From: Ruminococcus sp. | Lineage (GTDB): Bacteria > Bacillota > Clostridia > Oscillospirales > Ruminococcaceae | NCBI RefSeq assembly: GCF_017549005.1 | Contig: NZ_JAFYYT010000021.1 | Location: 1 to 44,837 of the forward strand | DNA: 44,837 bases | Direction: 5' to 3' | Position numbers and translations under genes: made by a program | Notes under the pieces: generated by a model | The model's input: the letters and a program-made list of their open reading frames with translations, nothing else | The model's database searches: none | What the model was told of the DNA's origin: nothing | Shown: one piece after another, positions 23,562 through 39,786 of the stretch | Layout of the letters: each line of letters begins with the position of its first letter | How positions within the stretch are numbered: position 1 is the stretch's first letter

Positions 23562-26500
23562 TCAGAACGACTTGATATCGCCCATTATGAACCTCTTGAG
23601 AAGCACAAGGTCAGCGCTGTTTATAGCGTCGTCATCGTTTATATCGGCTGCTCCGAAGTTATCGGCTTCACCTGTGAGAACTGCCTTTTTCATAGAGCAA
23701 AGATCGTAAATATCCACCTTTCCGTCCTCATTGAGGTCGCCGATAGCATATTTACTTACCGCCTTGTCTGTTCTCCACCAGTTTACATTGTAAAGGTAGC
23801 CCTCGCCGCCTGTAAATACGAAGTAAACATCGTGCTTGCCGTTGGTCTCACTGACAGAACAGGTCTGAGTGTTCCAGGTCTGCCAGCCGCTTGTGCTCTT
23901 GATATCCATTTTTCCTATGACCTGACCGTTCGGATCGTCAATATGTACCTCGAGGACAGCCTTTGCGCCGTTTGAACCGATACGGAAGTCGATATTGCGT
24001 ACATTTGTGAGATCAACGTCCTTGAAGCCGATGTACTCGCCGTTTTCGATATACGCAACATCAAGTCCGCCCTCCGAGCAGTTTTCGGTATCTATTCCCG
24101 ACTTGAAATCATAGGTCTCAGCCTGTACCACCTTGCTCAGCGACTTGAGTCCCTTGACAGGCACTGTTTTCTGTATAGCCGCTGTTGTAGTCGTTGCAGC
24201 CTTTGTTGTAGTAGTTGTAGCTTTTGTTGTAGTCTTTGTTGTGGTAGTTGTCACAGGCTGAACATTTTCACCGTCCGAGTAAACTGCCTCAACTGTAGCG
24301 TCAGACTCCAGCTTTACCTTTATAGAAGCTGTTGCGGCGTCGCCGTTGGTTATCCTGGCACCGTTTATGTTCCAGTGCGAGAAAGTGCGTCCCTCCACAG
24401 GCATAGCCTTGATATAGATATCGTAATCTGTGTGGTAATTACCGCTCCATCTGCTGATATTGCCGAGCTCAAGGGTATTGAGCTTTATGCTGCCGTTATC
24501 GGGAGAGTTGACCACTGTAAGTCTGCGCGGCTCGGAAGAAAGCCCTGCAGCCGAACGTGTAGTGCGCTCTGCATAGGGATAACGCTGTGCATAGAAGTCA
24601 AGAACAGTGGAAATATCGCCCTCAAATCGCCTGATCGCATTATCGCCCGAAAGGCTTCCCGAATGGAAACGCGCATATGTATCTGCTACCTGCTGTCTGT
24701 AGCTGTTCTTGTAGCCTTCTATGACTGCCCTTGTTCTGTCGGTATTGAAATTGTGATTTGCAAGGTCCATCATAGTCCTTGCGAATTTCAGTCTGAACTG
24801 CTCGATATTCATAAGGGAGTTGAACACTCTTGCCAGCTGGCTGCCGCTTTCACGGATACGTCTGAAACCGTCAGCGGAATAGGACTTGTCCTCTGTGCCG
24901 TAAAGTCCCTGTCCCGACTCGGTATCGAAGAGTATCATTCTCCACTTGCCGTCAGCGTAAGGATTTGTTTCGTCGATAGCATTTGAACGCCATGCGCTGA
25001 AATTGTTCTGCGGCCAGTCCGCATTCGACCAGTATATCTGAGCTGCAAAATAGTCCATGAAGCCCTGTATGTCTACCTTGCTGCAAAACTCGTCATAGGA
25101 CATATTCCCGTTTGCCATACCGTCGCAGACGCTGCGCCAGTCTCTGAGGTCCTGTTCCGAGCCCTCCTCGAGAGCGCCGTTCTCTATCATGGCGATATCG
25201 CTCTTCTTAACGCCGTAATGGTCGCTGAGGAAGCTTGTATTTATCTTTTCCATCATCTGATAGATACCCCAGAACTCGCCGTCGAGAAATACTATGCACT
25301 CTGTTACAGCCTGATGTGCAAATGCTCTGTCCGCAACAAGGCTCTGGTTGATGCTGTCACGGAAGAAAGCTCCTGTGTTGTCGTTTCCGCCGTTTCTGAG
25401 GACCACACCGTCGAATTTCTTTATAGCCTTGCCGTTTTTAGCCTTAACAGCTTTTCCTGAGAAGAAATCATAGTCAAACTCGGTAAGACCGTAATCCTTG
25501 CGTGTGTAAACGTTGAAGCTCTTCTGTGCGAGACATCTTGAGAAAGCTCCCTTGATACGTATGCCGACGCTCTGGTCTATCACCTTTTTACCGTTTTCAA
25601 ACATGGTGAATTGTGCAGGGCGCTCCCAGTCCCTGCCTCTCTGAGTGTAGTTTGCAGGTATCTCCCACGGCCACTTGTCGCCGCTGCTGTGCCTGTTTTC
25701 CTCGTATATCCTTCCGAGGCAGTAGATTCCCTTATTGTTGTCAAAAAGGTTTGCAGGGTCGGTAACGAGTGAAACTACCTTCATCTGCTTGTAGTAACCC
25801 GAATTTGTCCTGCCGATGAAGTATGTCTTTGTGATGTATTCGCTTGCCCGGTTCTCCTTGTCGACTGCAACAGCTCTTATGACTACTGCTTTGTCAACGT
25901 TTCCGCGGGGAGCTTCCGCACCGTCGGGAACTATGTCTGTACGTGCGCTCAGACGGTTCTCGGTATCAGTCATATCATTTATCGTGAGCGGCTCCGTATA
26001 CTTTTTTGAACCGTACACAGGGTCGCTGCCGTCTGTGGTATAGTAGATATCACACCCTTCGTCGGCTGTGAGCGTAAGTGTGAAGCTGCTGTCATAGAAG
26101 CCGCTTTCCTGCGAAAAAACAGGCGGATGCACAGCTGCGTTTCCCTCAGGAGCTGCATTCGCCTTGTCGGGAGTACCTTTAAGCGTGTAGAACTCGCCGC
26201 TTCCATCGGGGTACTGTCCGTATGAGGCGTCAGCCGCAAGCGCTCCGACCGTCACAGTCTGGACTCTGCTGCCATTCTTGTCGCTGAGCACGAGAGTTTC
26301 GCCCGAAGCTGCAAGTCCAAAAGGAGCTATCGTTCTGTCGTTTGCTGCTGCGTCGCTGTCACAGAAGACAATGAGTCTTCCCTCTGCCGGTACACGTGTT
26401 CCCTCAGGGAATACATATTTACGTGGCTCGCCTTCCGTATCGGAAAGTCCCCAGCCCGAAATATCGGCTTCTGTCTTTGCGCTGTTGTACAGCTCTATCC

Positions 26501-26672
26501 AGTCGTGGCACTTCCCGTCTGCCGCAGGATATGAGCTGTTTTTTGTGCAGATCTCATTCATTGACACTTGTACGTTAGTATCTGCGTGTGCAGGAAGATA
26601 TGAGGCGGTCTGCAAAAGCATCCCAAGGCATAATATCCCTGCAATGGTGTGTCTTTTTGAAGTGTTTTTCAT
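23562..26672 (-). CDS. Secreted CotH kinase-domain protein with LTD, CBM6 and dockerin
   Basis: A 1036-residue exported protein. Domains in order: signal peptide (1 to about 31, ending PAHADT); lamin-tail domain (VSMNEICTKNSSYP, WIELYNSA); a chitobiase-C-like segment (IYYTTDGSDPVYGS); CotH domain (about 296-677) with the motifs IRIKGAFSR, NADWPQNNFSAWR and FDTESGQG; a small beta-repeat (GRTFSHWNINGA); a Thr/Lys/Ala linker (about 805-830); CBM6 (QAETYDFKSG, IGFKDVDLTN, about 847-970); and a dockerin with two calcium loops (DLNEDGKVDIYD, DINDDDAINSAD). CotH proteins are Fam20C-like kinases, so this could phosphorylate extracellular or cellulosomal proteins; that is inference. The usual DxD metal pair reads DTE. 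The ATG at 26672 has GGAGGG; the frame upstream to 26771 is not needed. Confidence 0.85.
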   Translation of the reverse strand: MKNTSKRHTIAGILCLGMLLQTASYLPAHADTNVQVSMNEICTKNSSYPAADGKCHDWIELYNSAKTEADISGWGLSDTEGEPRKYVFPEGTRVPAEGRLIVFCDSDAAANDRTIAPFGLAASGETLVLSDKNGSRVQTVTVGALAADASYGQYPDGSGEFYTLKGTPDKANAAPEGNAAVHPPVFSQESGFYDSSFTLTLTADEGCDIYYTTDGSDPVYGSKKYTEPLTINDMTDTENRLSARTDIVPDGAEAPRGNVDKAVVIRAVAVDKENRASEYITKTYFIGRTNSGYYKQMKVVSLVTDPANLFDNNKGIYCLGRIYEENRHSSGDKWPWEIPANYTQRGRDWERPAQFTMFENGKKVIDQSVGIRIKGAFSRCLAQKSFNVYTRKDYGLTEFDYDFFSGKAVKAKNGKAIKKFDGVVLRNGGNDNTGAFFRDSINQSLVADRAFAHQAVTECIVFLDGEFWGIYQMMEKINTSFLSDHYGVKKSDIAMIENGALEEGSEQDLRDWRSVCDGMANGNMSYDEFCSKVDIQGFMDYFAAQIYWSNADWPQNNFSAWRSNAIDETNPYADGKWRMILFDTESGQGLYGTEDKSYSADGFRRIRESGSQLARVFNSLMNIEQFRLKFARTMMDLANHNFNTDRTRAVIEGYKNSYRQQVADTYARFHSGSLSGDNAIRRFEGDISTVLDFYAQRYPYAERTTRSAAGLSSEPRRLTVVNSPDNGSIKLNTLELGNISRWSGNYHTDYDIYIKAMPVEGRTFSHWNINGARITNGDAATASIKVKLESDATVEAVYSDGENVQPVTTTTTKTTTKATTTTTKAATTTTAAIQKTVPVKGLKSLSKVVQAETYDFKSGIDTENCSEGGLDVAYIENGEYIGFKDVDLTNVRNIDFRIGSNGAKAVLEVHIDDPNGQVIGKMDIKSTSGWQTWNTQTCSVSETNGKHDVYFVFTGGEGYLYNVNWWRTDKAVSKYAIGDLNEDGKVDIYDLCSMKKAVLTGEADNFGAADINDDDAINSADLVLLKRFIMGDIKSF

Positions 26673-26780
26673 TTTTCCCTCCAACGATTGTTTCTTACCC
26701 TCTGAATAACGATCCTTTCGGATCATGCTCTGACACTTCTGCTTGTCAGAAAAAAGTTTAAAATGGATCACAACTTAAAT

Positions 26781-26944: not shown

Positions 26945-27009
26945 AGTGACAAATGTCACTCAGAAAGTGACAATCGTAACTTGAGAAATGAGGAGCAAAT
27001 AAATATAAT
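26945..27009 (+). promoter_or_regulatory. Operator palindrome and promoter of the lipid operon
   Basis: Palindrome AGTGACA-AA-TGTCACT (26945-26960) is followed by a third half-site AGTGACA (26966-26972). Next come a -35 TTGAGA (26981-26986), a 17-base spacer and TATAAT (27004-27009). Three copies of one half-site just upstream of the -35 look like an activator or repressor site. The rest of the divergent region 26810-26944 is AT-rich and shows nothing else I can name. Confidence 0.55.
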
Positions 27010-27041: not shown

Positions 27042-27407
27042 ATGAAAAACAAAAATATTTTTCAGAGCATAAGATGTGCAGCACACGGCATTGCCGAATG
27101 CTACAGAAGCGAAAGGAACTTCATGGAATACACGGCTATCGCGCTTTTCATGCTGATATTCAATATCCTGCTGCACTGTGCGGTATGGGAGTACATCGTA
27201 TTCGTCGCCCTTGTGACCGCCGCTTTTTCCGCAGAGTTCCTGAATACTGCCATTGAGCGCGTCATCGACACCTACGACAACAATATCAACGAGAAGAACC
27301 GCTTCATCAAGGACGCGGCGGCAGGCGGAGTTCTTGCCATTTCCTCAGCATTCTTCGTAACCGAAGCTATAATCCTCGTTCCAAAGGCTTTAGCGCTGCT
27401 AAAATGA
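27042..27407 (+). CDS. dgkA: DgkA-type lipid kinase (undecaprenol/diacylglycerol kinase family)
   Basis: A 121-residue membrane enzyme with three predicted helices. The signature AAFSAEFLNTAIERVID and the following KDAAAGGVLAISS match the DgkA family, whose Gram-positive members phosphorylate undecaprenol and whose Gram-negative members use diacylglycerol. The N-terminal FQSIRCAAHGIAECYRSERN is also typical. A GGAGG site lies upstream. It is the first gene of a five-gene operon and its last codons overlap the next gene (ATGA). In this setting it should supply a phosphorylated lipid alcohol for the downstream enzymes; which alcohol is unknown. Confidence 0.88.
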   Translation: MKNKNIFQSIRCAAHGIAECYRSERNFMEYTAIALFMLIFNILLHCAVWEYIVFVALVTAAFSAEFLNTAIERVIDTYDNNINEKNRFIKDAAAGGVLAISSAFFVTEAIILVPKALALLK

Positions 27408-28000
27408 ATATTCTCACTGAGATAACGCAGATATATGCAACTCTTGCGTCAGTGATAATCGCAGGAGTACTGAACATGATATTTGTAAAGCTGCCCATAT
27501 GCGAAGAGCTGAAAAAGCCTATGGACTGCGGAAAATGTCTCCGCGACGGCAAGCGTCTCTTCGGGGACAACAAGACCTGGAAGGGCTTCCTCGGAATGAT
27601 TTTTCTCGGCGGAGCGTCTCAGGTCATATGGGGAGCTGTATGCTCCGCAGTTCCGCCTCTTGAAGCAAAAAATCAGCTGATCGCCGTTCACGGCAACAGC
27701 TTCGCGCCGAACCTCGGGGCAGGACTGCTTTTCGGGCTCGCCTATGCGGTATTCGAGCTGCCGAACAGCTTTATAAAGCGCAGGGCAGGCATAATGGCAG
27801 GCAAGACCGATAAGGGGCTGAAGGGCATGATATTCTATGTGATAGACCAGATAGATTCGCTTCTGGGAGTCGTCCTGTGCCTCAGTCTGCTCTGTCCGGT
27901 AAGCTTCGGACAATACTGGCTTTACATTCTTGTGGGATTTTTTACACATTCGGCTGTGAACCTGATTCTTTACGCACTCAGGATACGCCGCAACATTTAA
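27404..28000 (+). CDS. CDP-archaeol-synthase-like CTP:lipid-phosphate cytidylyltransferase
   Basis: A 198-residue protein with about five membrane helices. The motif LFGDNKTWKGFLGM matches the CarS/CdsA-like family (PF01864 type), and the C-terminal third has YVIDQIDSLLGVVL, a further conserved acidic motif. In archaea CarS activates digeranylgeranylglyceryl phosphate with CTP; bacterial members are often annotated only by homology. Here it overlaps dgkA by four bases, and kinase then CTP-transferase is a logical order (lipid phosphate to CDP-lipid). The substrate could be phosphatidate or an isoprenoid phosphate. Confidence 0.72.
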   Translation: MNILTEITQIYATLASVIIAGVLNMIFVKLPICEELKKPMDCGKCLRDGKRLFGDNKTWKGFLGMIFLGGASQVIWGAVCSAVPPLEAKNQLIAVHGNSFAPNLGAGLLFGLAYAVFELPNSFIKRRAGIMAGKTDKGLKGMIFYVIDQIDSLLGVVLCLSLLCPVSFGQYWLYILVGFFTHSAVNLILYALRIRRNI

Positions 28001-28013
28001 GGGGGAAACGACC

Positions 28014-28928
28014 ATGTTAAAACGACTTGATATCTATTTCAGGGAAATGTATCCGCTTTTACCTCGTCTGATACTTGGATTCATAGTTTTCGGCGAGATA
28101 TACTTCATTGTACTGCTCAATAACGGAGTTACCGATTTCAGCATATCTTTAGCCGAATTTATCGGCGGCTTCACAGTATTCAGCTTCCTTTGCTGGCTCA
28201 GGATAGCCGATGATTTCAAGGACTACGAGCTGGACTGCCGCCTTTTTTCACACCGCCCTCTTCCCTCGGGAAGAGTCACAAAAAAGGACCTTGCCATATT
28301 CATAACCTCGCTTATCGCGGTAACGGTGATCCTCAACTTTGTATTCCTCAATAATTTCCTGTTCTTCCTTTTCCTTTACATCTACGGAACACTCATGTCG
28401 CTGTGGTTCTTCCAGAAAAAGAAGATACAGAAAAGTCTGCCGCTGGCGCTGGTAACGCACAATCCCGTGCAGATGATACTCAATATCTACATAATCTCCT
28501 TCACCTGCATAAAATACGGACTTTCCGCATTTACTCTCACCAATTTCCTCGCAATGATGACCCTTTACTTCCCTGCACTCATATGGGAGATATCAAGAAA
28601 GATAAGAGCTCCTAAGGACGAGACCGAATACGTTACCTATTCAAAGCTTTTCGGCTATAAAAAGCCCGTAAAGTTCGTGCTTGTACTCACTCTTGTCGAC
28701 ATTCTCACAAATATCCTCCTGGTTTACAGGCTCAGCTGGATATCCGTAGCAGCCCTGCTCATAAACGTTGCATGGATGACATGGAAATTTGTGGAGTTCA
28801 TAGGCGACCCGACTAAGTTCAGGCTGGTCGATAAGGTGGAAAAATACACATACATACAGGAAAGCATAATGCTCATAACAGTTGCAGGATATATAATCTC
28901 ACAGAGAATGGGGGTAACACTGATATGA
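28014..28928 (+). CDS. UbiA-like prenyltransferase
   Basis: A 304-residue integral membrane protein with about eight or nine helices. The first Asp-rich motif, IADDFKDYELD, followed by RPLPSGRVT, is the diphosphate/Mg-binding signature of UbiA prenyltransferases (pattern DDxxDxxxD ... RPLxxG). The second motif is weaker: ISRKIRAPKDETEYVTYSK. The family transfers a prenyl chain to an acceptor in the membrane. The gene starts 13 bases after the CTP-transferase, with GGGGG upstream, and its stop overlaps the next start (ATGATG). The acceptor is unknown; a lipid or polyol from the neighbouring steps is possible. Confidence 0.75.
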   Translation: MLKRLDIYFREMYPLLPRLILGFIVFGEIYFIVLLNNGVTDFSISLAEFIGGFTVFSFLCWLRIADDFKDYELDCRLFSHRPLPSGRVTKKDLAIFITSLIAVTVILNFVFLNNFLFFLFLYIYGTLMSLWFFQKKKIQKSLPLALVTHNPVQMILNIYIISFTCIKYGLSAFTLTNFLAMMTLYFPALIWEISRKIRAPKDETEYVTYSKLFGYKKPVKFVLVLTLVDILTNILLVYRLSWISVAALLINVAWMTWKFVEFIGDPTKFRLVDKVEKYTYIQESIMLITVAGYIISQRMGVTLI

Positions 28929-31264
28929 TGATAACTGAGGACAATTACAGAAAATACAGGATAGGCTCAAAGGCTCAGCGCCTTTTCATCATGCGTGAGA
29001 ACGGTCTCAACGTTCCCGAACTGGTATGCGTTCAGAGCGCAGACAGTCTTTCGGACTTTCCCTTTGACAAGGACGGGCTGTACTCGGTACGCTCCTCTGC
29101 GGACTGTGAGGACGGAGCTTCAATGTCCTTTGCAGGGCAGTTCAGCACCTGTCTGAACGTCAGGGGCACAGAGCTGAAAAAGTATGTGGAAAGATGCCTT
29201 TCCGCTGGCAATGCAGCCGAGGACTACATTAAAAGCATGGGCAAAGACCCCGAAGAAGCTCATATCTCTGTCATAATACAGAAAATGGTGGAGTCCGAGC
29301 TCTCAGGCGTCATATTCACCTCAAATCCGCAGGGGATACTAAACGAAACGGTCATAGTTGTCGGAAAAGGTCTCGGAAACGGCGTAGTCGAGGACAAGAC
29401 CGACGTTACCCACTACTATTACAATACTACCGATGACCTGTACTGCTTCGAGAGACAGAACGACTCTCCCCTGCTGACCGACGAGCTGCTCCGTGAGCTC
29501 ATTGCGGTATCCAAAAAGATATGCGGCATTTTCGGCAAGCGTCAGGACATTGAATTTGCCATAAAGGACGGAGAAGTTTTCATTTTGCAGGCAAGACCCG
29601 TTACTTCTCTGAGGAAATGTTCCGTGACCGTCCTCGACAGCAGCAATATCTCGGAAAGTTACCCCGGGATATCCCTTCCTATGACAGTCAGCTTCGTAAG
29701 CGAGGTCTACTATCAGGTATTCAGAAGCTGCGTGAAAAGAGCTACCAGAAACGACGGCACAGCCGAGCGCATCGACACTTCTCTCCGCAATATGACAGCC
29801 AGCGTCAACGGAAGGATCTACTACCGCATAAGCAACTGGTACGACATAATAGCTATGCTGCCTTTCAGCAAAAAAATAATCCCTGTATGGCAGGAAATGC
29901 TGAGCGTTCACGAAAAGGAAGTGACCCGCTCCGGCGAGAAGGCAGGCTTTATGACAAAGCTCCGCGTGACGGCTTCGTTCTTTCAGCTTCTCTCTAAAAA
30001 CCGCAGGAATATGAAGAAACTTGACGAATATTTCGATAAAGTCTACGAAAAATACTCTTCCGCCATAGATGAGACGCACAGTCCCGAGGCTCTTCTTGAA
30101 CTGTACTGCGGACTCCGCAGCGAGCTTGCCTGCCACTGGGACCTCACACTTGTCAACGACCTGTATACCTTTATTTTCACTGGGCTTCTCAAAAAAAGCC
30201 TTACAAGGAAATACGGCGCAGAGGGGCAGGAGCTTACGAATCTTTTCATTGCAGGCAACCGCGATATCGAAAGCATGAAGCCCGTCAGAATGCTTGCGGA
30301 AATAAAGAAATGCTTCACGGAAAGCGGTGTTCTTGATGAGCTGCGCGGCGTAAACGACCAAAAAAGCTTTGAAAACGCAATGGATAAGTGCAGGAGCGGA
30401 GCAAAGCTCATATCGCAGTATATCGGGCTCTACGGTGACAGATGTCCCGAGGAGCTGAAGCTCGAAACGGATACCTACCGCACAAAGCCATATCTGCTTG
30501 CGGAAAACATAGTAAACGCCGCAGACTGCGGCAGAACAGACGCGGAAAAGCTCCCGAAGCTGGGAATATTCGCCGAAGCCTTTGCAAAAAGGGCAGCAAA
30601 CGGCATAAAGCTCCGCGAAAGCTCGCGTATGTCAAGAGGAAAGATATTCGGACTTGTCCGCAGGATAATTCTAAAAACTGCCGATGAGCTCTGCAAAAAC
30701 GGGCGTATCGACGCTCCCGCAGACGTTTTCTGCCTGCAATTCGACGAATTGTTTGAAGCAGTGAAGCAAAAGGACATGGAGCTCAGAGAGCTCATAGAAA
30801 CGCGCCGCGCAGCCTTCAGGAGCTTTGAGAAGCTGCCTCTGTATTCGAGACTTGTGTTTGCAGGAGAACCCTTTGACAAGCAGTTCTCAGCCGCTTCGGC
30901 AGGAAGCCTTGCAAATACCGACACTCTCAGGGGTATCCCATGCTCGTCAGGCGACGCAGAGGGTGAAGTCTTGGTTGTGGACAAGCTCACTCCCGACCTT
31001 GACAGCGAGGGAAAGATAATAGCCGCAAAAATGACCGACCCGGGCTGGGTATTTCTGCTCAGCAGGTCGGCAGGCATAGTATCCGAGCGCGGCTCTCTCC
31101 TGTCGCATACCGCCATAATCTCCCGTGAGCTGAAAAAGCCTGCTGTCGTAGGTGTAAAGGAGCTCTTTTCAACCGTAAGGAACGGCGACAGGATACACAT
31201 AAACGGTTCCACGGGAACCATCACCATTATTGAAAAGAAGATAAAAATGAACGAGGCGATATAA
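28925..31264 (+). CDS. Rifampin-phosphotransferase-like / PEP-synthase-like dikinase
   Basis: A 779-residue protein with an N-terminal ATP-binding domain of the PPDK/PEP-synthase type (LYSVRSSADCEDGASMSFAG, IIQKMVESELSGVIFTSNP, VGKGLGNGVVEDK, QDIEFAIKDGEVFILQARP). A long middle region (about 240-670) has no PEP/pyruvate TIM barrel. A C-terminal swivelling domain carries the phospho-His728 in GSLLSHTAIISREL and the motif DPGWVFLL. This order (ATP domain, substrate domain, His domain) is that of rifampin phosphotransferase, not true PEP synthase. The predicted chemistry moves the ATP beta-phosphate through His to a substrate bound in the middle domain. In this operon the substrate is more likely a lipid intermediate than an antibiotic, but that is inference. 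Confidence 0.75.
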   Translation: MMITEDNYRKYRIGSKAQRLFIMRENGLNVPELVCVQSADSLSDFPFDKDGLYSVRSSADCEDGASMSFAGQFSTCLNVRGTELKKYVERCLSAGNAAEDYIKSMGKDPEEAHISVIIQKMVESELSGVIFTSNPQGILNETVIVVGKGLGNGVVEDKTDVTHYYYNTTDDLYCFERQNDSPLLTDELLRELIAVSKKICGIFGKRQDIEFAIKDGEVFILQARPVTSLRKCSVTVLDSSNISESYPGISLPMTVSFVSEVYYQVFRSCVKRATRNDGTAERIDTSLRNMTASVNGRIYYRISNWYDIIAMLPFSKKIIPVWQEMLSVHEKEVTRSGEKAGFMTKLRVTASFFQLLSKNRRNMKKLDEYFDKVYEKYSSAIDETHSPEALLELYCGLRSELACHWDLTLVNDLYTFIFTGLLKKSLTRKYGAEGQELTNLFIAGNRDIESMKPVRMLAEIKKCFTESGVLDELRGVNDQKSFENAMDKCRSGAKLISQYIGLYGDRCPEELKLETDTYRTKPYLLAENIVNAADCGRTDAEKLPKLGIFAEAFAKRAANGIKLRESSRMSRGKIFGLVRRIILKTADELCKNGRIDAPADVFCLQFDELFEAVKQKDMELRELIETRRAAFRSFEKLPLYSRLVFAGEPFDKQFSAASAGSLANTDTLRGIPCSSGDAEGEVLVVDKLTPDLDSEGKIIAAKMTDPGWVFLLSRSAGIVSERGSLLSHTAIISRELKKPAVVGVKELFSTVRNGDRIHINGSTGTITIIEKKIKMNEAI

Positions 31265-31265
31265 C

Positions 31266-32342
31266 ATGAAATATACCGCAAAACTCATTTCGGCAGACAA
31301 CAAGAAGGAGCTTTCCGACTTTCTGTCACTGCCGGGAAAACTATACAAAAAAAGCGAGCTCATGCAGGACAGAGCCGAGGAAAAGGCTCTGCTGCGCGGC
31401 TCGCATATACTCAGAAGATACTTCCGCGTATTTCCAGTAATTGCAAGGGACGAAAGCGGAAAAGTCGCCGCAAGGTGCGCCGTTACCATATATCCCGACC
31501 GCTCCTCCGCTTATTTCGGCTTTTTCGAGTGCATAAACGATATAAAAGCGGCTCAGGCGCTTATGAAATGTGCCGAAAGCATTGCAAAAAAGGAGGGAAA
31601 GACCTCCCTCACAGGACCTGTAGACTGTTCCTTCTGGATACGCTACAGGCTCAAGACCGATAATTTCGGCTCGCCCTATACAGGCGAGCCGTACAACCTT
31701 GATTATTACGAAAAGCTCCTGTGCGGCTGCGGTCTCGAAAGCTGCGGCGAATACATATCCAACCGATATGGCAGGATACCTGCGGAGTACAGCGACGGCA
31801 GATTCAGCCGACGTCTGCCTCAGTTCACAGAAAAGGGCTATGAGCTGAAAAGCCCCGACAACAGCACCTTTGAGCGCTCTCTGCGCGAGATATACCGTCT
31901 TATCATGGAGCTTTACAGCGATTTTCAGACATTCAGCCCCATAACCGAGGACGAATTTGCCGCAATTTATTCTCCGCTGAAAAAAATTGTGGACTATTCA
32001 ATGGTAAAGGTCGCCTATTTCCACGGAGAAGCCGTGGGCTTCTTCGTATCTGTCCCTGATTTCGGCAATGCTGTCCGCGGCAGCATAACTCCCGCGAAGC
32101 TGCTGAAAATACTGAGCACAAAGAAGAAGTGCAGACAGTATATCCTCCTGTATCTCGGCATAAAGCCCGAGCATAAAGGCCTCGGCAAGGCTCTTTCCGA
32201 GGCGCTCTGTCAGAACCTTGCCGACAACGGCGCTGACTCCGTGGGAGCTCTCATACGTGCAGGCAAGGTCAATGGCAGCTATTTCAGCCAGCTGATAAAA
32301 GAGACATACAGCTACAGGCTCTACAGCAAGGACATAGCTTAA
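31266..32342 (+). CDS. GNAT family acyltransferase (YghO-like)
   Basis: A 358-residue protein. The first half contains TSLTGPVDCSFWIRYRLKTD and GEPYNLDYYEKLLCGCGLES, resembling the YghO-like two-lobed GNAT family as I remember it. The second half carries a canonical acyl-CoA-binding segment: ILLYLGIKPEHKGLGKALSE, with the GxGxA-type loop. It should transfer an acyl or acetyl group to an amine or hydroxyl. It starts two bases after the preceding gene and ends the operon ahead of a terminator, so it probably finishes the product of this pathway. Confidence 0.72.
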   Translation: MKYTAKLISADNKKELSDFLSLPGKLYKKSELMQDRAEEKALLRGSHILRRYFRVFPVIARDESGKVAARCAVTIYPDRSSAYFGFFECINDIKAAQALMKCAESIAKKEGKTSLTGPVDCSFWIRYRLKTDNFGSPYTGEPYNLDYYEKLLCGCGLESCGEYISNRYGRIPAEYSDGRFSRRLPQFTEKGYELKSPDNSTFERSLREIYRLIMELYSDFQTFSPITEDEFAAIYSPLKKIVDYSMVKVAYFHGEAVGFFVSVPDFGNAVRGSITPAKLLKILSTKKKCRQYILLYLGIKPEHKGLGKALSEALCQNLADNGADSVGALIRAGKVNGSYFSQLIKETYSYRLYSKDIA

Positions 32343-32362: not shown

Positions 32363-32390
32363 AAAAGGCTTCCCGACGGGAAGCCTTTTC
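32363..32390. terminator. Shared terminator of convergent operons
   Basis: AAAAGGCTTCCC-gac-GGGAAGCCTTTT (32363-32389). It ends the five-gene operon on the plus strand and the GGDEF-EAL operon on the minus strand. Confidence 0.85.
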
Positions 32391-32401
32391 TAACTGATTT
32401 T

Positions 32402-34138
32402 TTACATTTCACCCATTACAAGCCTTTCGGCTTCATTCATAGGAAGCGGACGTCCCCAGATAAAGCCCTGTATATAGTCACAGCCGATATCCTTCAGCGA
32501 AACGAGCTGCTCCTCTTCCTCAACGCCCTCTGCAATAACGTCAAGTCCCATGATATGACCTATGGAAATAATCGCAGCAACGTACTGCTTTGAAGAGTCG
32601 TCCTTATTCATGTCGTCAATAAACGACTTGTCTATTTTCAGCAGGTTTGCAGGGAATTTGTTCAGATAGCTCAGTGACGAATAGCCGGTTCCGAAGTCGT
32701 CGATAGCGATCTTTATGCCCATTTTCTTTATCTCCTCGATACATTGCAGGGCTTTTTCCGCAGAATCTATCATTACCGACTCCGTTATCTCAATTTCCAG
32801 CTGATTTGCAGGAAATTCTCCCGTATTGATTATCTCCCTGAGCTCGTCAAGGAAATCGTTCTTCATCATGTGCTTTACCGATACGTTAACGCTCAGCGTT
32901 ATATCGGCTCCCGATCTTTTAAGGAGCTCCCCGAAGAATGCGGCGGACTTCTTCATTACCATGCCGTCCACCTTGTCGATGATACCCACCTTTTCCGCAA
33001 CGGGTATGAACTCGCCTGGACTTATAACGTTTCCGTCCGAGTCCTTCATACGTGCAAGGGCCTCAAATCCGCGGAGCTTATGGTCAATACTGTACTGCGG
33101 CTGGAGGTTGAAGTATATAGTCTCGTTTTCGAGAGCCTCTCTGAGCTTTCTTTCGATCTCGAGGGTACGCTCTTTTTTGAGGAGGTCGGGCGAAAAGCGC
33201 AGGATATGGTTTCCGCTGCCGGCTCGCTTGACCTCTGTCATAGCCGCGTCCGCATAGGAGAAGAGACTGTCGGAGGTTTTCGCGTCTGTCGGGAACTTGG
33301 CATAGCCGAAGCTTGCTGATATGTAAAGGTCCACGTTGTCAATGGTAAGCCGTCTGCCGAGAGCGGATTCATACTGCTTTATCGTATTCATGATATCGTC
33401 GTCGGAATGATAATTCCTGATTATCAGTGAAAACTCATCGCCTGCGATACGTGTGATGAAGTCGAGAGTTCCCGATACGCCCGTATCAGCAATGCTCTTC
33501 CAGCGCGAAGCTATCTCGATAAGGACTTTATTTCCGATATTGAAGCCCATTGTATCGTTTATGCCCTTGAAATTGTTAAGGTCTATGGAGACCATGGCAA
33601 ATTCATCGCCGCGTCTGATAAGACTGCTCACAAGCTCCGAACAGGCAAATCTGTTCGGTATCTCCGTCAGTCTGTCGGTAACAGCCTGATCTCGTATCCT
33701 CTCCTGGTACTTTTGATTTTTATAGTTATTGTCATATATGAGCATAATAGCTATTATGGTCAGAAAATCAGTGAAGATTCCGGGAATCATAGCAAGGCTG
33801 TGATGTCTCAGCATACTTATCGTCAGCATTGGTAACTGTATTATCAACGCCGTAAGAGCAGTATAGAATCCCAGCTTTTTATAATACACCACCATAAGTA
33901 TTACGCATATATTAGACAGCGCCGAAAGAATACCCGCAAAAGCATTTATAGGTATGTTTAAGTCTGCGATACTTATATAAGTGTTGGAACCCTTGCAGGC
34001 TGTCGCGACTATCAAAGCGATATAGACCACGACCAACGCCACATATCCCACTATAGGTGCTTGTTTATTCTCTGAAAAACTTTCGATCGTTTTTTGGAGA
34101 ATATTATTCTCAGCAACCTCAGATCTGTTTTTTTTCAT
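32402..34138 (-). CDS. Membrane GGDEF-EAL protein; probably phosphodiesterase
   Basis: A 578-residue protein. Four predicted membrane helices lie in residues 28-138. The GGDEF domain (about 150-315) is degenerate: RIAGDEF instead of GGDEF, and GFNIGN where active cyclases have GHxxGD, so it probably only binds GTP or regulates. The EAL domain (about 325-575) keeps the catalytic residues: FEALARM, LSVNVS, EITESVMI, IDDFGTGYSS, LKIDKSFI, AEGVEEEEQ and QGFIWGRPL. Net activity is therefore predicted as c-di-GMP hydrolysis. The start has GAGGGA upstream. It is the second gene of an operon, 41 bases after a Cache-HAMP-GGDEF cyclase, giving an opposing pair. Confidence 0.87.
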   Translation of the reverse strand: MKKNRSEVAENNILQKTIESFSENKQAPIVGYVALVVVYIALIVATACKGSNTYISIADLNIPINAFAGILSALSNICVILMVVYYKKLGFYTALTALIIQLPMLTISMLRHHSLAMIPGIFTDFLTIIAIMLIYDNNYKNQKYQERIRDQAVTDRLTEIPNRFACSELVSSLIRRGDEFAMVSIDLNNFKGINDTMGFNIGNKVLIEIASRWKSIADTGVSGTLDFITRIAGDEFSLIIRNYHSDDDIMNTIKQYESALGRRLTIDNVDLYISASFGYAKFPTDAKTSDSLFSYADAAMTEVKRAGSGNHILRFSPDLLKKERTLEIERKLREALENETIYFNLQPQYSIDHKLRGFEALARMKDSDGNVISPGEFIPVAEKVGIIDKVDGMVMKKSAAFFGELLKRSGADITLSVNVSVKHMMKNDFLDELREIINTGEFPANQLEIEITESVMIDSAEKALQCIEEIKKMGIKIAIDDFGTGYSSLSYLNKFPANLLKIDKSFIDDMNKDDSSKQYVAAIISIGHIMGLDVIAEGVEEEEQLVSLKDIGCDYIQGFIWGRPLPMNEAERLVMGEM

Positions 34139-34179: not shown

Positions 34180-35664
34180 TTACCTGTCCAAGCCGTATTT
34201 TCTCCTGAAGCGTTTCTTGTCCTCGTACATCGCCTCATCGGCGCGTTTGAAAACAGGGTCGGCAGTTGTATCATACGAAGCGTTCTCCGCCATCCCAACT
34301 GCGGCAGAGTACCTGAACCAGGGTTTCAGCTCCGTCTGATTGTATTTTTTGTCGAATTTTTCCCTGAGCTCATCGACAAGAGCCTGTCGCTCCTTGTAAT
34401 CATGCCCCTGCAATACGACAATGAACTCGTCGCCGCCTATCCTGTAGACGGGAGAATGCTTGAATACCTCGCAGACCAAGCGGCAGCAGCCTCTTATGTA
34501 CTGATCGCCTGCCTTATGTCCGCAGCTGTCATTTATGTCCTTGAGTTTGTTCATATCCACCATTACAAGTGCAAACTCAATGTCCCCCTCGGACATTTCC
34601 ATATTCAGCAGGTTGACCCTGTTTGAATATGCAGCCTTGCTTCCCACGCCTGTCAGCATATCCTTCTTGGCTTCCTTGCTGAGCCTTCCTATCTGGAGTT
34701 CCTTATCCCTTATATCCTGTTCTGCTTTGAGCTTATCCTGCTGCAATTCCGAAAGATCGTTGAGGCGGTCTGTTATATTCATCTGCATTGAGCGGATACC
34801 ATGATAAAGGTCGCCGATCTCATCGTGATTTTTTATGTTAAGCTCCATGACCCCTGCCTCCTTGTAGGTCAGCCCCTCGGCAGGGTTGAATTTCTTCATT
34901 TCCGTGGTCATTGCTCTGAGAGGGTTGCTGATGAGCCTGTTTATCAGGATCATCGATATTGTCTGAACAACAACGGTAAATACCAGCGCTCCCATTATAA
35001 GGTAGATGAGGAAGCGGTTGCGCTCGTTCATCACGTCCTCCATGTCGAAGTCGCAGCCGACTATGCACACACATTCGCCCTCAGAGTTATAAACAGGGCA
35101 GAATGAGGAGCAAAGCCAGCCCCAGTCGCCGTTGGAGATAGTGGGTTCGATATTAGCTGTCAGATCAAGACCTAAAAGCTCCTCCTCGCGGTCTTCATAG
35201 TAGCCCGTCTGAAAGACAGGCTCGTCGGGGGCATCAATGAGGTACATATCCTTCACGGCGTCCTTATCGCCATTGGCAACGACATAGATGTACTTTATAT
35301 CTGTCATGTTCTGCAGATAGCGCTCTATCGCGCCCTGTACCCTTACATATTCGTCCCAGAGGCCGTGTTCCCTGAGATAATCCTTGATGATCTCCTCGTC
35401 GCCGTCCTTCATTGCTTCTCCGCGCAGAGCCTGAAACTCCGCAGATTCTGCTGTTTCGCGGAGCTTCCCGAGATAATCGCCGTCCAACATCGTCGAAAAG
35501 TACCTTGCGTTACTGGCCGTGCAGCGTTTATAGTAATCGTTTATCTGGTTAACGCTGGCAAAAAAGGCAACTGCCGTCGTACCTGCCGCCATTGCAAGAA
35601 CGATAAGGAATACAAAAATGTATATCTTGACTTTTACCGAAAAAAAGCCTTTCTTTTCATCCAC
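34180..35664 (-). CDS. Cache-HAMP-GGDEF diguanylate cyclase
   Basis: A 494-residue transmembrane cyclase. TM1 (about 11-33) and TM2 (about 218-240) flank an extracellular region of Cache type (YLQNMTDIKYIYVVANGD, WGWLCSSFCPVYNSEGECVC). A HAMP linker follows TM2 (NRLISNPLRAMTTEMKKF, NHDEIGDLYHGIRSM), then a short coiled coil and an intact GGDEF domain (VDMNKLKDINDSCGHKAGD, YRIGGDEF). No RxxD site is seen before GGDEF. It likely senses a small outside molecule and makes c-di-GMP. The start has AAAGGGGGG upstream. It is the first gene of the operon with the GGDEF-EAL protein. Confidence 0.88.
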   Translation of the reverse strand: MDEKKGFFSVKVKIYIFVFLIVLAMAAGTTAVAFFASVNQINDYYKRCTASNARYFSTMLDGDYLGKLRETAESAEFQALRGEAMKDGDEEIIKDYLREHGLWDEYVRVQGAIERYLQNMTDIKYIYVVANGDKDAVKDMYLIDAPDEPVFQTGYYEDREEELLGLDLTANIEPTISNGDWGWLCSSFCPVYNSEGECVCIVGCDFDMEDVMNERNRFLIYLIMGALVFTVVVQTISMILINRLISNPLRAMTTEMKKFNPAEGLTYKEAGVMELNIKNHDEIGDLYHGIRSMQMNITDRLNDLSELQQDKLKAEQDIRDKELQIGRLSKEAKKDMLTGVGSKAAYSNRVNLLNMEMSEGDIEFALVMVDMNKLKDINDSCGHKAGDQYIRGCCRLVCEVFKHSPVYRIGGDEFIVVLQGHDYKERQALVDELREKFDKKYNQTELKPWFRYSAAVGMAENASYDTTADPVFKRADEAMYEDKKRFRRKYGLDR

Positions 35665-35948: not shown

Positions 35949-38900
35949 TTACTGTCCTTCGTGGAAGAAGTAGGGAAGTCCATCATATACATAATGTCTT
36001 ACATTGCCCCACCAGTGATCCTTACCGTTAACTACCATGAAGTAAAGGTTGCCCTTTGAGAAGTCAGATGTGTAAACGAACTGGCTCATCTTCTTCATTT
36101 CGTCGATCTGAGGACTTACGTTAGGATAAGCTATATCAGTTGAACCTGTAGCGCAGAATATGAAGTACTCATTCTTCTGGAGACCTGACTTGTCAACTGC
36201 ATTAGCAATACCCTTAGCCTTGTCGTATGCTGAGTTACCGTTCCAGCTGTCGCCGCTGAGAGGCATGAAGTAGCCTACGATGTCGAGGCAGTTCTCGAAT
36301 ACAGCCCATGTTGAAACGCCGCCCATTGAGAAGCCGCCGTATGCTCTGTGCATTCTTGAAGCCTTGAGTGAGCTCTCAGATGTATCCTTGTTAGCATAAG
36401 TTGAGTACTTGCCCTCAACGAAAGGAACTAAGCTCTGACGGAACTCGCTGTAGAAGCGTCCTGCTTCTGTCTTGTTGAATGTCGGGAATACAACGATAAG
36501 TGGCTCAAGCTCGCCGTTCTTGATCATATTGTCCAGCATATTCTGGATCATAGTATCGTTCTGGGAGATCAGAGTGTTCTCATTCTCTCCGCCGCCGTGC
36601 ATGAGATAGAATATGTTGTACTTCTTGCTCGGGTCATAGTTATAAGGAGTATAAACATTGCAGCTGTTATAGCCGTTTATGCCGTTATAGCTCTCCTTTG
36701 TGACCTTACCCTGCTGCTGGCAGCCGTTGAAGTAATAATCAGGAGCTGCCTTATACTGTAAGTTAGCATTGTAGTTGAAGTTTGACTTAGGCTGAGTTGT
36801 TGTTGTAGTTGTAGTTGCCTTTGTTGTAGTTGTTGTCTGTCTTGTAGTAGTTGTTGTTGTCGGCTGTGTAGCAACAGTCTGCTGCTCATTTCCGCCATTG
36901 CTGCCCTGTGAAGATACAGTGAGTATCTTGTCAGCATAGCTGTCAGGAAGTGACTTTATGAGACCGAGGAGATACTTCTGGATAGTATAAGCGTCGATAG
37001 TTGTGATACCAGCGCCTGCCTCGTAAACGTCTGCGTTGAACTTGCCCTGATCTGTAAGTGAATACTTGTTCGGGTTAGCAAGTGACTGCATGATGATTAC
37101 TGCGTCAGCCATATCTATGCCGCCGTCGCAGTTACCGTCGCCCCACTTTGAAACCTTTTCGTTGAGGAGCTCCTTGAGATCCTTTGCCGGAACTGTGGTT
37201 GTAGTAGTTGTAACAACGGGAGCTGTAGTAGTTGTAGTTGTTGTAACTACCTCCTCCTCATAGCTCGGAGGATCGATCTTCTTTGTGAGTGCGATGATGT
37301 CGTTGTAGAACGACTTAGGCTGATAGTTGCTGAACGGAAGCGGTGAACCGCCGTTTTCACGGTATCTCCAGCTTCTCTCATCTGTTGTACCCCAGAGAGT
37401 TACAGTTGAGATGTTCTTAGCGTGCTTCATAGCAACCTCAAAGATCTGAGGATAAAGCTGTCCGTTAGAACCTGTGCTGTTTGTGATATCGAGCTCAGTG
37501 ATCTGAACGTCAAGTCCGAGTGACTCGAACTGCTTGATAGCTGTCTCGAACTCGCTTGCTGAAGGATACTTGGAATCAAGGTGAGCCTGCATACCGATAC
37601 CATCGATATAGTCGCCCTCCTTCATGACTGTCTTGGCCATGTTTACAAGGTCCTTGGTCTTTGCGCTCATGTACTCGTTATAGTCGTTGAGGTAAAGCTT
37701 ACAATCCTTAGGAGCATACTGTCTTGCATACTTGAATGCGTTTACAACGAATTCTGAGCTGCCGTTGTATACTCTTGACCAGTTGGAATTGTTTGCAGGT
37801 CTCATTCCGCCGCCGTCGTTAACGAAGAGCTCGTTACAAACGTCGTAGGAGTGGAGATTAAGGTTCGGGAACTGAGACTTGATAGCACTGAAAGTATTCT
37901 TGATCATGCTCTCAAGACGCTTGTTCATTCTGTCCTTTGATACAGTGCCGCCGTTGTCCTGGAACAGAGACTGAGGAGTCTGGCTGTACCATACGAACGT
38001 ATGACCACGAACGCCGATGCCGTTCTGCTCAGCGAACTTGAGTATGCTGCTTGCAGAATTAAGGCTGATGTTTACATTATCGCCGTTTACGCCTGCAACG
38101 ATGGAATCAGGCTTCATTTCGTTCTCGCAGGTGATGGAGTTGTAGTTCTTCTTGATGAACTGCTGAGCCTGTGAGTTGCCTATCTCGTTGCCGCTTACGG
38201 AAGTACCGAGACGGAAGTACGGTCCCATGTAATCCTTGAAGCCGTCGCCGCCCTTTTCGTACTTGTAGTTGAGGTTCTGATGTGCGCGAACGCCTGTATA
38301 GCTTGCGCCGCCGCCTGAGCCGCCTTCACCGCCGCCTGAGCCGCTGCCGCCGCCTGCGGATGTGTCGCCAACTGTGCCCTGGCCTGTTACTACAGATGAT
38401 TCCTTGCCTGCCTTGGAAACCTGAACTGCGTCTACGAAGAAGTCGCAGAGGTCGCCTGAGCTCTCGGGAGTCTCAATGTAGAGTATAAGGTCGCCTGAGT
38501 TGGAAGGTATCTCGAACTTTGTATTCTCGAGCTTTGTCCACTCACCGCTCTTAGCCGAGCAGTCAGCGATCTGTGTATAGGAAGCGCCGTTGCCGTCGCC
38601 CTGCTGGAGGGACATCTGGAGAGTTACAGTGCTGCCTGAGTTCTGGAGAACTGCTGCGCTGAAGCTGTATGTCTCGCCGGGTACGAATGCACTTGAATCA
38701 AGCGGGATAGCACAGCCGTTCCACTCGTTCTCTCTTCCTGAAACGTAGAGTGACTTTGAACCGTCGTAGAAGTTCTTGCTGTTTGTATCAACAGAAGCGC
38801 TTCCTCTTCCTACCCAGTCGCCTTCGCCGCTTTCAAAATCATTTGTGAAGTAGTCGCCGTTCTTATCGGGCTCTACTGTCTTAGCGGGTGTAACGGTCTC

Positions 38901-39668
38901 TCCGCCGCCGCCACCGCCGCCGCCGTTATAACCGTTCTCGTATACGGCGAGGCTCTTAACGTTAGCAGAACCGTTTGATCTGTAGCCCTCGATGTTAAGG
39001 GATACTTCATAAAGAGTACCCGACATATCGAGACCTGCCTTTGACCATGCGTCAAAGTGCTTGCCTACGTGGATAGTACCCTTCATGTAGTTTGTTGTAT
39101 TGTTTCTTGAGCCGCTTGTCTGGCGGATGCTCCAGTACTGCGGGAAAGTAGCTGTACCGTCAAGAGAAGGCTGATTGTAACGCATTGTCTTTGCAATGTC
39201 GTATGTGTTTCCGTCAAGAGTTACAGTACCCTTTCTCTCAGCGCCGTCTCCGGGTGGACGCCAGTCGCCCCAGCCCTCTACGATGTAGTATTCCATGAGA
39301 GGATTTCTTGTCCAGCCGTATACACACATATAGGAGTTTCCTCTTGGTGTGTACTCAACATCATAAGTCAGAGTGATATCAGAGCCTATCTGATTGTACC
39401 TCTGCTTTTTGCTGTCGTAGTTCTTGCCCATACGAGCCAGGAAGTTTTCAATTCCGCTCCAGGAACAGGAGAAAGAGCCTGCACCGGGGTTCATTGAAGC
39501 CTGACCTGTATAGTTCTGGTTCCACATCTCATAGTCAAATCCGCCGATATTGCCTCTTACCTGCTGGTCAGCTCCATGAACAACCGCAGGAACAGAAGGA
39601 ATACTTGCAGCGATCATCACAGCAGTAGTACCTGCGCCGACGATCTTCTTCAAGATGCCTTTTCTCAT
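35949..39668 (-). CDS. Multimodular secreted xylanase: GH11-CBM22-GH10-dockerin-CE1
   Basis: A 1239-residue cellulosomal enzyme cutting and de-esterifying xylan. Domains: signal peptide (1 to about 33); GH11 (about 35-250) with nucleophile Glu125 in LMEYYIVEG and acid/base Glu near 226 in LNIEGYRSN; poly-Gly linker; CBM22 (about 270-421); Gly/Ser linker; GH10 (about 456-798) with acid/base Glu near 612 in DVCNELF and nucleophile near 724 in QITELDIT; Thr linker; dockerin (about 843-909; GDGNCDGGIDMADAVIIMQ); second Thr linker; CE1 esterase (about 964-1239) with Ser near 1112 in GGFSMGGVS and His in KDHWWGN. An internal dockerin between catalytic modules is typical of R. flavefaciens. ATG at 39668 is chosen because GAGGA abuts the earlier ATG at 39677. 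Confidence 0.93.
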   Translation of the reverse strand: MRKGILKKIVGAGTTAVMIAASIPSVPAVVHGADQQVRGNIGGFDYEMWNQNYTGQASMNPGAGSFSCSWSGIENFLARMGKNYDSKKQRYNQIGSDITLTYDVEYTPRGNSYMCVYGWTRNPLMEYYIVEGWGDWRPPGDGAERKGTVTLDGNTYDIAKTMRYNQPSLDGTATFPQYWSIRQTSGSRNNTTNYMKGTIHVGKHFDAWSKAGLDMSGTLYEVSLNIEGYRSNGSANVKSLAVYENGYNGGGGGGGGETVTPAKTVEPDKNGDYFTNDFESGEGDWVGRGSASVDTNSKNFYDGSKSLYVSGRENEWNGCAIPLDSSAFVPGETYSFSAAVLQNSGSTVTLQMSLQQGDGNGASYTQIADCSAKSGEWTKLENTKFEIPSNSGDLILYIETPESSGDLCDFFVDAVQVSKAGKESSVVTGQGTVGDTSAGGGSGSGGGEGGSGGGASYTGVRAHQNLNYKYEKGGDGFKDYMGPYFRLGTSVSGNEIGNSQAQQFIKKNYNSITCENEMKPDSIVAGVNGDNVNISLNSASSILKFAEQNGIGVRGHTFVWYSQTPQSLFQDNGGTVSKDRMNKRLESMIKNTFSAIKSQFPNLNLHSYDVCNELFVNDGGGMRPANNSNWSRVYNGSSEFVVNAFKYARQYAPKDCKLYLNDYNEYMSAKTKDLVNMAKTVMKEGDYIDGIGMQAHLDSKYPSASEFETAIKQFESLGLDVQITELDITNSTGSNGQLYPQIFEVAMKHAKNISTVTLWGTTDERSWRYRENGGSPLPFSNYQPKSFYNDIIALTKKIDPPSYEEEVVTTTTTTTAPVVTTTTTTVPAKDLKELLNEKVSKWGDGNCDGGIDMADAVIIMQSLANPNKYSLTDQGKFNADVYEAGAGITTIDAYTIQKYLLGLIKSLPDSYADKILTVSSQGSNGGNEQQTVATQPTTTTTTRQTTTTTKATTTTTTTQPKSNFNYNANLQYKAAPDYYFNGCQQQGKVTKESYNGINGYNSCNVYTPYNYDPSKKYNIFYLMHGGGENENTLISQNDTMIQNMLDNMIKNGELEPLIVVFPTFNKTEAGRFYSEFRQSLVPFVEGKYSTYANKDTSESSLKASRMHRAYGGFSMGGVSTWAVFENCLDIVGYFMPLSGDSWNGNSAYDKAKGIANAVDKSGLQKNEYFIFCATGSTDIAYPNVSPQIDEMKKMSQFVYTSDFSKGNLYFMVVNGKDHWWGNVRHYVYDGLPYFFHEGQ

Positions 39669-39786
39669 TTTGATCATTCCTCACTTTCTGAAAAATATTA
39701 GTGATTTTTTCCCTTTTCTCGACCAAGAAAAAGCACAAAAGTGCAATAAACTTTTGAGTCCCATCTTTTTCTCAGTTCCTACTCTT

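Follow-up and report, generated by a model that had tools for sequence, protein, structure and literature searches.

Described systems related to the operon

Several described pathways employ enzymes of the families encoded by the operon analysed in this study, a row of five genes for DgkA-, CarS-, UbiA-, Rph- and GNAT-like proteins at positions 27042-32342 of a 44,837-nucleotide stretch of Ruminococcus sp. DNA (contig NZ_JAFYYT010000021.1, assembly GCF_017549005.1; referred to below as the window). Prenyl transfer, CTP activation, serine transfer and decarboxylation are handled in the archaeal phospholipid pathway by the same broad enzyme families as those found in the operon and its relatives, but operons of this type add a lipid kinase, one or more Rph-type dikinases, a GNAT and an acyl ligase, the second motif of their UbiA protein is altered, and no full-length GGGP synthase was found in the genomes searched. 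In tocopherol prenyl salvage, phytol kinase and phytyl-phosphate kinase feed a UbiA-type transferase, an arrangement that the operon would share, but this salvage route has no counterpart to the CDP activation, serine transfer and N-acyltransferase of the operon. Rifampin phosphotransferase (RPH) and the operon Rph agree in the domain set, the phospho-histidine, the ATP-grasp residues and the R-E pair of the substrate domain, whereas the operon Rph is shorter (779 against 867 amino acids), stands in lipid operons and scores 207 bits, far under the RPH equivalog cut-off of 999. Rph-type dikinases form a large unexplored group, the substrates of which are mostly open according to an excerpt of PMC4844700.

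For bacterial ceramide, an excerpt of PMC11324152 describes Caulobacter CerS (CC_1154) as a required N-acyltransferase, encoded in a region that also carries LptF2/LptG2 (for more on bacterial ceramide synthesis see the accessible parts of PMC10865984 and PMC11087976). The operon GNAT is homologous to plasmid-borne GNATs, some of which lie beside serine-palmitoyltransferase-like genes, but the identity is 18-26 %, and a serine-palmitoyltransferase-like gene was not found in 10 of 11 operon genomes. In betaine-lipid synthesis, BtaA forms diacylglycerol-O-homoserine from diacylglycerol and S-adenosylmethionine, and a homologue of the betaine-lipid synthase is annotated as DUF3419 (excerpt of PMC10685587). 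A DUF3419 gene is present in sister clusters of the operon, whereas none was found in the genome of the window, and no BtaB-like methyltransferase is annotated in the sister cluster of Roseinatronobacter.

We propose, with a probability of roughly 60 %, that the operon represents one modular pathway for an undescribed membrane lipid, on the basis of direct observations, namely the genes present and their linkage, the exchange of modules and the conservation of catalytic residues. A possible undescribed lipid pathway had been suggested by a first-pass annotation of this DNA, and the suggestion is now supported by homologues that travel together, by the genes for PssA, Psd and acyl ligase in the operons of relatives and by the alternative BtaA-like gene. 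A description of this combination was not found in the open-access literature, searched by titles and abstract openings, a scope outside which most subscription journals and preprints fall. For GNAT-type ceramide synthases and for Ruminococcus lipids, the literature found there was of a background kind only.

Organization and conservation of the gene set

All five genes were recovered as open reading frames on the plus strand, encoding a DgkA/UdpK-family lipid-alcohol kinase (27042-27407, 121 amino acids), a CarS-like CTP:lipid-phosphate cytidylyltransferase (27404-28000, 198 amino acids), a UbiA-superfamily membrane transferase (28014-28928, 304 amino acids), an Rph-type dikinase consisting of ATP-grasp, substrate and swivelling phospho-histidine domains with His728 (28925-31264, 779 amino acids) and a putative GNAT-type N-acyltransferase (31266-32342, 358 amino acids). 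The DgkA/CarS and UbiA/Rph pairs overlap by 4 bases each, while gaps of 13 bases and 1 base separate CarS from UbiA and Rph from GNAT, respectively. The gene set agrees with the first-pass annotation, the first four families being matched by Pfam; its tight same-strand packing also holds, except that the smallest gap is 1 base and not 2 in the given range of 2-13 bases. The GNAT label of the fifth protein derives from homologues, as the window protein itself gave no GNAT family match in Pfam or NCBIfam.

Scanning of the named genomes with an alignment of UbiA gave 159 loci, and the analysis covers the best 80 of them; the genes of each locus were counted by chained tblastn around UbiA, and the loci are not phylogenetically independent. 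UbiA is accompanied by Rph in 76 of the 80 loci, GNAT in 70, CarS in 65 and DgkA in 57, and further by Psd (39), PssA (35), acyl ligase (26) and a second Rph-type dikinase, RPH2 (9). Since all five genes of the window are held by 52 of the 80 loci that had been fetched by UbiA alone, the arrangement is not due to chance, and in 75 of the 80 UbiA is directly followed by Rph. Among the four loci without Rph beside UbiA, three reach a contig edge within 128 bases, and the fourth (L051) carries Rph about 3.4 kb downstream. Of the ten loci in which GNAT is missing beside the other genes, seven break off no more than 152 bases after their last gene, one (L051) carries its GNAT further downstream, and none was found in L052 and L073. 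The widest cluster of neighbours outside the operon, which includes ABC-transporter ATPases as read by eye, reaches 18 loci, indicating that gene order is shared within the operon but not beyond it. The loci L009-L012, apparently the same stretches as L025, L014, L019 and L015, were not analysed apart, and L013, a weak UbiA match in G030, was left out.

The operon is spread over Ruminococcus, Lachnospiraceae, Roseburia and Pseudobacteroides, and strains with the names Ruminococcus flavefaciens and Roseburia inulinivorans are among its bearers. The UbiA protein is 94-95 % identical to its nearest named relatives, from Ruminococcus, and shows a median identity of 79 % in 47 loci, a value partly owed to the UbiA-based selection. 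Among 60 genomes drawn as relatives, UbiA was strongly matched in 5, counting the window's own, and weakly in one more, and the search of 398 genomes of the phylum with NF010118 matched the window's own genome only. As to the co-occurrence search across Clostridia that had been advised, the five families were found to travel together and their homologues are not scattered.

Linkage in searches independent of UbiA

We also searched one set of 291 Clostridia genomes by the Rph, CarS and DUF3419 families, without regard to UbiA. The Rph family NF004882 was matched at E 1e-80 or better, a threshold of our own choice, in 9 of the 291 genomes, of which 2 exceed the curated cut-off. UbiA stands beside Rph in eight of these nine, namely the five genomes of class I, to which the window belongs (its own genome by construction), G591, G538 and G646 (profile E 1.2e-5); in the ninth, G565, a 167-amino-acid reading frame adjoining Rph gave an ambiguous UbiA signal, with E 0.095, or 0.006 with a wider profile. 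CarS was matched at E 0.001 in 109 of the 291 genomes and at 45 bits or more in just 7, and the weaker matches, mostly in frames of 260 to 330 amino acids, were taken for CdsA. Six of the seven strong CarS genomes are among the nine Rph genomes (hypergeometric 7e-10), and DUF3419 at E 1e-15 was found in 3 of the 291, exactly G538, G565 and G591, where it adjoins the Rph cluster or lies inside it (hypergeometric 2e-5), both values having been computed after seeing the data and ignoring relatedness. Psd is present in 44 of the 291 genomes, in all five of class I, inside the operon in four and outside it in the genome of the window, and in none of the four other Rph-family genomes.

Two variant loci were seen in this draw. 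The cluster L114 (G646:C50) consists of a PssA-like gene, a gene for a 923-amino-acid protein, CarS, a very divergent UbiA and Rph, and no GNAT match was obtained in that stretch. The seventh strong CarS genome, G520 (L115, G520:C35), carries CarS, a partial RPH2 and Psd in pieces, with no UbiA match in 18 kb, and this cluster is possibly decaying.

Two types of Rph dikinase and the exchange of the lipid kinase

The Rph protein of the window matches PF01326 (PPDK_N) at residues 50-231 (E 3.4e-34) and PF00391 (PEP-utilizers) at 695-764 (E 7e-22), so that the ATP-grasp comes first and the histidine domain last, and no PEP/pyruvate-barrel family was matched in Pfam. Its best PDB matches, 5fbs and 5hv1-3 (E about 4e-81), were deposited as phosphoenolpyruvate synthase and are otherwise known as rifampin phosphotransferases. 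The matches extend over profile positions 54-233 and 484-778, and the stretch of about 233-484 gave no PDB match by sequence. The claim of the first reading that Rph carries no PEP/pyruvate barrel is borne out, the region from residue 484 on aligning with structures of rifampin phosphotransferase type and the catalytic residues being kept. In 55 rows R56, H728, R564 and E565 are invariant and T75 is nearly so, and R56, T75, H728 and the R564-E565 pair align with Arg117, Thr136, His825 and the substrate-domain R-E pair of RPH-Lm. These RPH residues are critical according to the available part of PMC4844700; in the alignment with the window protein the pair reads R666-E667, whereas the text of that paper gives Glu666 and Arg667.

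NF004882, named 'phosphoenolpyruvate synthase', gives the window's Rph 749 bits against a cut-off of 850. A plain phosphoenolpyruvate synthase was rejected, the barrel family being absent, and a role in rifampin resistance is unsupported at 206.6 against 999 bits on the rifampin phosphotransferase equivalog NF041857.

RPH2 is a divergent dikinase of about 836 amino acids that matches the same PDB structures at E 2e-102. In the 65 loci with CarS, DgkA occurs alone in 57 and RPH2 alone in 8, and neither both together nor the lack of both was observed. DgkA is located upstream of CarS and RPH2 downstream of it. In a UbiA tree that comprised the window, 75 of the 80 loci and four additional genomes, a branch with weak support (72/39) separates the loci of RPH2 type, accompanied only by a single truncated locus, from the others, and loci consisting of the core genes alone arose at least twice. 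No other observation points as clearly as the swap between DgkA and RPH2 to a lipid alcohol as the substrate that RPH2, and perhaps Rph-type dikinases across these clusters, would phosphorylate.

Genes for the proposed head group

DgkA of the window matches its family PF01219 at 77 bits (E 1.1e-21), and E65, N68, E72, K90 and D91, which we take to be catalytic residues of the family, are invariant in an alignment of 14 rows. The CarS-like protein reaches 58.3 bits on PF01864 (E 1.3e-15; curated cut-off 22) and 69 bits on the CDP-archaeol synthase equivalog NF003114, below the cut-off of 148. In addition, the operons of relatives carry genes for a CDP-alcohol phosphatidyltransferase (PssA-like), a phosphatidylserine decarboxylase (Psd; PF02666, E 9e-52) and an AMP-forming acyl ligase (PF00501, E 5.9e-48). 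The PssA-like protein of Pseudobacteroides matches PF01066 with E 4.9e-15, its best NCBIfam match being archaetidylserine synthase (70 bits, cut-off 240), followed by PssA (61 bits, cut-off 107). The PssA-like and Psd genes of the related operons suggest a phosphoethanolamine head group. In the genome of the window, a PssA-like gene (C54:83271, E 2.7e-54) and a Psd gene (C53:39482, E 8e-52) lie apart from the operon.

A second class of cluster, with DUF3419

On a plasmid of Roseinatronobacter (Alphaproteobacteria), genes for UbiA, Rph, DUF3419, a membrane protein, a GNAT and an AMP ligase are consecutive, and in a comparison confined to these six proteins this GNAT matches the GNAT of L079 with E 1e-15 and that of the window with E 2.9e-11. 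The same set in the same order was found in G538, the last gene being cut by the contig end, and in a different order in G591, while in G565 the membrane protein is missing and a second AMP ligase is present. The class II membrane protein, hyp439, gave nothing usable in Pfam, in NCBIfam and in profile comparison with CarS; by eye, and unconfirmed by these three, we consider it similar to the phytol/dolichol-kinase family. Deinobacterium chartae, a control genome, matches both NF004882 Rph and DUF3419 and may hold a class II cluster.

More distant relatives were observed in Streptomyces. A plasmid of S. clavuligerus carries AfsA, ICMT, Rph and UbiA in a row (L132, 6409-11786), the UbiA protein matching PF01040 with E 6e-4, below the cut-off, and the profile with E 1.2e-10; this cluster may belong to secondary metabolism. 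On a plasmid of S. durmitorensis the order is AfsA-ICMT-nitroreductase-Rph-P450, both clusters combining an Rph dikinase with an A-factor-type synthase.

The UbiA-like and GNAT-like proteins

The UbiA-like protein matches PF01040 at 34.7 bits (E 1.5e-8), barely above the cut-off of 34.2, and NF010118 'prenyltransferase' at 438 bits (cut-off 443). Homologues from Pseudobacteroides cellulosolvens exceed the cut-offs of both NF010118 (UbiA) and NF004882 (Rph), two families of generic name for which a functional description was not found. The first Asp-rich motif, RIADDFKDYELD in the window and R..DD.KD.E.D in general, is invariant in 18 Clostridia rows, including D66, D67, D70 and D74, and the second motif is E..RK in the window and in the Clostridia rows of the alignment. 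Both motifs recur in the proteins of Roseinatronobacter and S. clavuligerus, with E in place of the second Asp. The single PDB relative detected by profile is archaeal DGGGP synthase 6m31 (E 2e-4 over 86 positions), and the score on the DGGGP-synthase equivalog NF009522 is 16.9 bits, far under the cut-off of 353.

The identity of the GNAT-like protein was drawn from its homologues, one of which matches PF00583 with E 3.3e-12. By tblastn with the Pseudobacteroides GNAT, 18 plasmid records were matched, and we inspected the surroundings in 5 of them. The homology of the plasmid proteins extends over 60-83 % of the length, and a profile of 55 clostridial GNAT rows matches all five at 57 to 95 bits. 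The GNAT of a Rubrobacter plasmid adjoins a serine-palmitoyltransferase-like gene and a reductase, that of Pseudomonas veronii (YghO) has a serine-palmitoyltransferase-like gene nearby with four genes between, and that of Sphingomonas lies near LptF/LptG; the GNATs of the Bacteroides and Ensifer plasmids have neither a serine-palmitoyltransferase-like nor an LptF/LptG neighbour. The operon GNAT resembles the ceramide-synthase-type N-acyltransferases, and CC_1154 presumably belongs to the same GNAT family. A serine-palmitoyltransferase-like match at E 1e-20 was not found in 10 of the 11 operon genomes, that of the window included, with one Rubrobacter protein as the query, its function being read from family and context; the remaining genome, G725, has two such genes (39 % identity).

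Proposed pathway and alternative explanations

Reading the gene families as successive steps, we propose that the UbiA-type enzyme would transfer a chain, probably prenyl and activated as the diphosphate, to a small acceptor, that Rph would phosphorylate a hydroxyl of the acceptor or the donor through phospho-His728, with conversion of ATP to AMP and Pi, and that the ceramide-synthase-like GNAT would add a fatty acyl group, which some relatives would obtain from the clustered acyl ligase, so as to yield a lipid with a free hydroxyl. These details of the core chemistry are perhaps right, and we regard them as doubtful. For the head group, where each step follows from the family and the order is conjectural, DgkA would phosphorylate this hydroxyl, CarS would convert the lipid phosphate to a CDP-lipid, and the PssA/Psd pair would add phosphoserine and decarboxylate it to phosphoethanolamine. 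In other lineages the second Rph-type dikinase would replace DgkA, or a DUF3419 (BtaA-like) homoserine transferase would replace the whole phospho-module. Taken further, the UbiA-Rph pair could mark a class of bacterial lipids, so far undescribed, in Clostridia, Alphaproteobacteria and perhaps Actinomycetota, built on an acyl- and prenyl-bearing alcohol that is neither diacylglycerol, ceramide nor archaeol, and carrying either a phosphoethanolamine head, made by DgkA or a novel Rph-type lipid kinase with CarS, PssA and Psd, or a homoserine head, made by the BtaA-like protein; Rph-type dikinases would then include lipid kinases. To this wider proposal we give somewhat short of an even chance. 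Two separate Rph subfamilies are associated with lipid genes, and one apparently replaces a known lipid kinase, which offers a testable class of substrates; the product, if new, would be a membrane lipid of rumen and gut Clostridia that can be searched for in lipid extracts of cultured strains; and the exchange of head-group modules between clusters provides a clean way to work out the backbone.

A number of observations weigh against the single-pathway proposal. The operon of the window itself has no gene for PssA, Psd or acyl ligase, and a phosphoethanolamine head in this organism therefore depends on the unlinked genes, which are not specific to the operon because Ruminococcus G034, a genome without this UbiA, has both. 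Among 15 genomes searched, Psd was not found in one, that of the very close operon bearer L016, and two core-only genomes gave just weak PssA matches (E 3e-4 and 6e-4), all of which could be assembly gaps. CarS was not found at E 0.001 in 12 genomes with the UbiA-led core only, while two positive controls matched; several of the 12 are draft metagenome assemblies, for which the absence is not proof, but the head-group module appears not to be obligatory. Canonical UbiA prenyltransferases have an Asp-rich second motif, from which E..RK of the window departs, and prenyl transfer is thus not assured. The swap between DgkA and RPH2 may be a single replacement event, and the hypergeometric values suffer from the after-the-fact computation noted above. 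The Rph match is in pieces in 6 of the 80 loci (L020, L033, L068, L071, L075 and L092), for example in three pieces at 10911-13029 of L075 (Roseburia inulinivorans DSM 16841), where frameshifts, sequencing or assembly errors or decay may be responsible. Finally, the substrates and the product are conjectural, and the step order is a guess.

Some of these observations would suit an operon that combines two unrelated functions, in which DgkA-CarS(-PssA-Psd) serves as an accessory route from diacylglycerol to ordinary phosphatidylethanolamine, while the product of UbiA-Rph-GNAT is a separate small molecule, for instance a secondary metabolite. The parts can indeed live apart, as the core-only loci and the 12 genomes without detected CarS indicate, and the Rph relatives on Streptomyces plasmids lie in AfsA/ICMT clusters resembling secondary metabolism, one with UbiA. 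Nevertheless we consider this explanation unlikely in view of the joint operon being kept across divergent Clostridia, the restriction of strong CarS to Rph-family genomes in 6 of 7 cases among the 291, and the presence of a different head-group gene, DUF3419, beside Rph in three other clusters. More improbable still is a modification or recycling of envelope material linked to polyprenyl phosphate, with DgkA as undecaprenol kinase and UbiA moving a sugar-like group to polyprenyl phosphate in the manner of decaprenyl-phosphate phosphoribosyltransferase. Undecaprenol kinase is a member of the DgkA family, and polyprenyl phosphate serves as the acceptor for some UbiA-fold enzymes, but this scheme leaves CarS, PssA and Psd without a role, and neither a glycosyltransferase nor a flippase was recognised in the recurring neighbour clusters inspected (5 to 14); undecaprenol-linked material, the alternative named in the first-pass annotation, gained no support.

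There is very little probability, in our judgement, that a bacterium-borne pathway for archaeal-type ether lipids is represented, with UbiA as DGGGP synthase, CarS as CDP-archaeol synthase and PssA/Psd as archaetidylserine synthase and decarboxylase, even though DGGGP synthase is the single PDB relative of UbiA, CarS belongs to the CDP-archaeol synthase family and the PssA-like protein of Pseudobacteroides scores best with archaetidylserine synthase. UbiA, CarS and the PssA-like protein all fall far below the archaeal equivalog cut-offs, and a full-length GGGP synthase (PF01884) was not found in 14 genomes (13 operon bearers and G034), with nothing in the window's genome, which makes the pathway unlikely. 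Three partial PF01884 matches cover 46-52 of 226 positions, one of them, in G455, slightly exceeding the cut-off (24.2 against 23.9 bits) together with its frame neighbours. A ceramide-type sphingolipid pathway leading to ceramide phosphoethanolamine appears equally far-fetched. The GNAT is homologous to those accompanied by serine-palmitoyltransferase-like genes, an N-acyltransferase is needed for ceramide in Caulobacter (excerpt of PMC11324152), acyl ligase is clustered in 26 of the 80 relatives, and G725 has the two serine-palmitoyltransferase-like genes; however, the lack of a detected match in the other ten of the 11 operon genomes disfavours any sphingolipid dependent on that enzyme, and a sphingoid base would account for neither UbiA nor Rph.

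Signals and genes surrounding the operon

A strong stem-loop, predicted as an intrinsic terminator, was detected 3' of the operon on the plus strand (32363-32389, -18.3 kcal/mol, z -6.7), in accordance with the terminator annotated in the first pass. This terminator is probably shared with the convergent gene for a GGDEF-EAL protein on the minus strand (32402-34138), behind which a HAMP-GGDEF protein is encoded (34180-35664, minus strand). Upstream of the operon, a consensus scan gave a sigma-70-like promoter candidate on the plus strand, TTGAGA-17-TATAAT (26981-27009, 11 of 12 bases). Since 13 promoter-like sites with at least 9 consensus bases were observed in the region against 7.0 expected in shuffles, such a site by itself carries little weight.

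Divergent from the operon, a large protein with lamin-tail, CotH kinase, CBM6 and dockerin domains is encoded at 23562-26771 on the minus strand, and this product is a cellulosome-type protein carrying a CotH kinase. The gene at 35949-39677 on the minus strand encodes a probable cellulosomal xylanase of several domains, in which GH11, CBM4_9, GH10 and an esterase domain are combined with a weak dockerin match.

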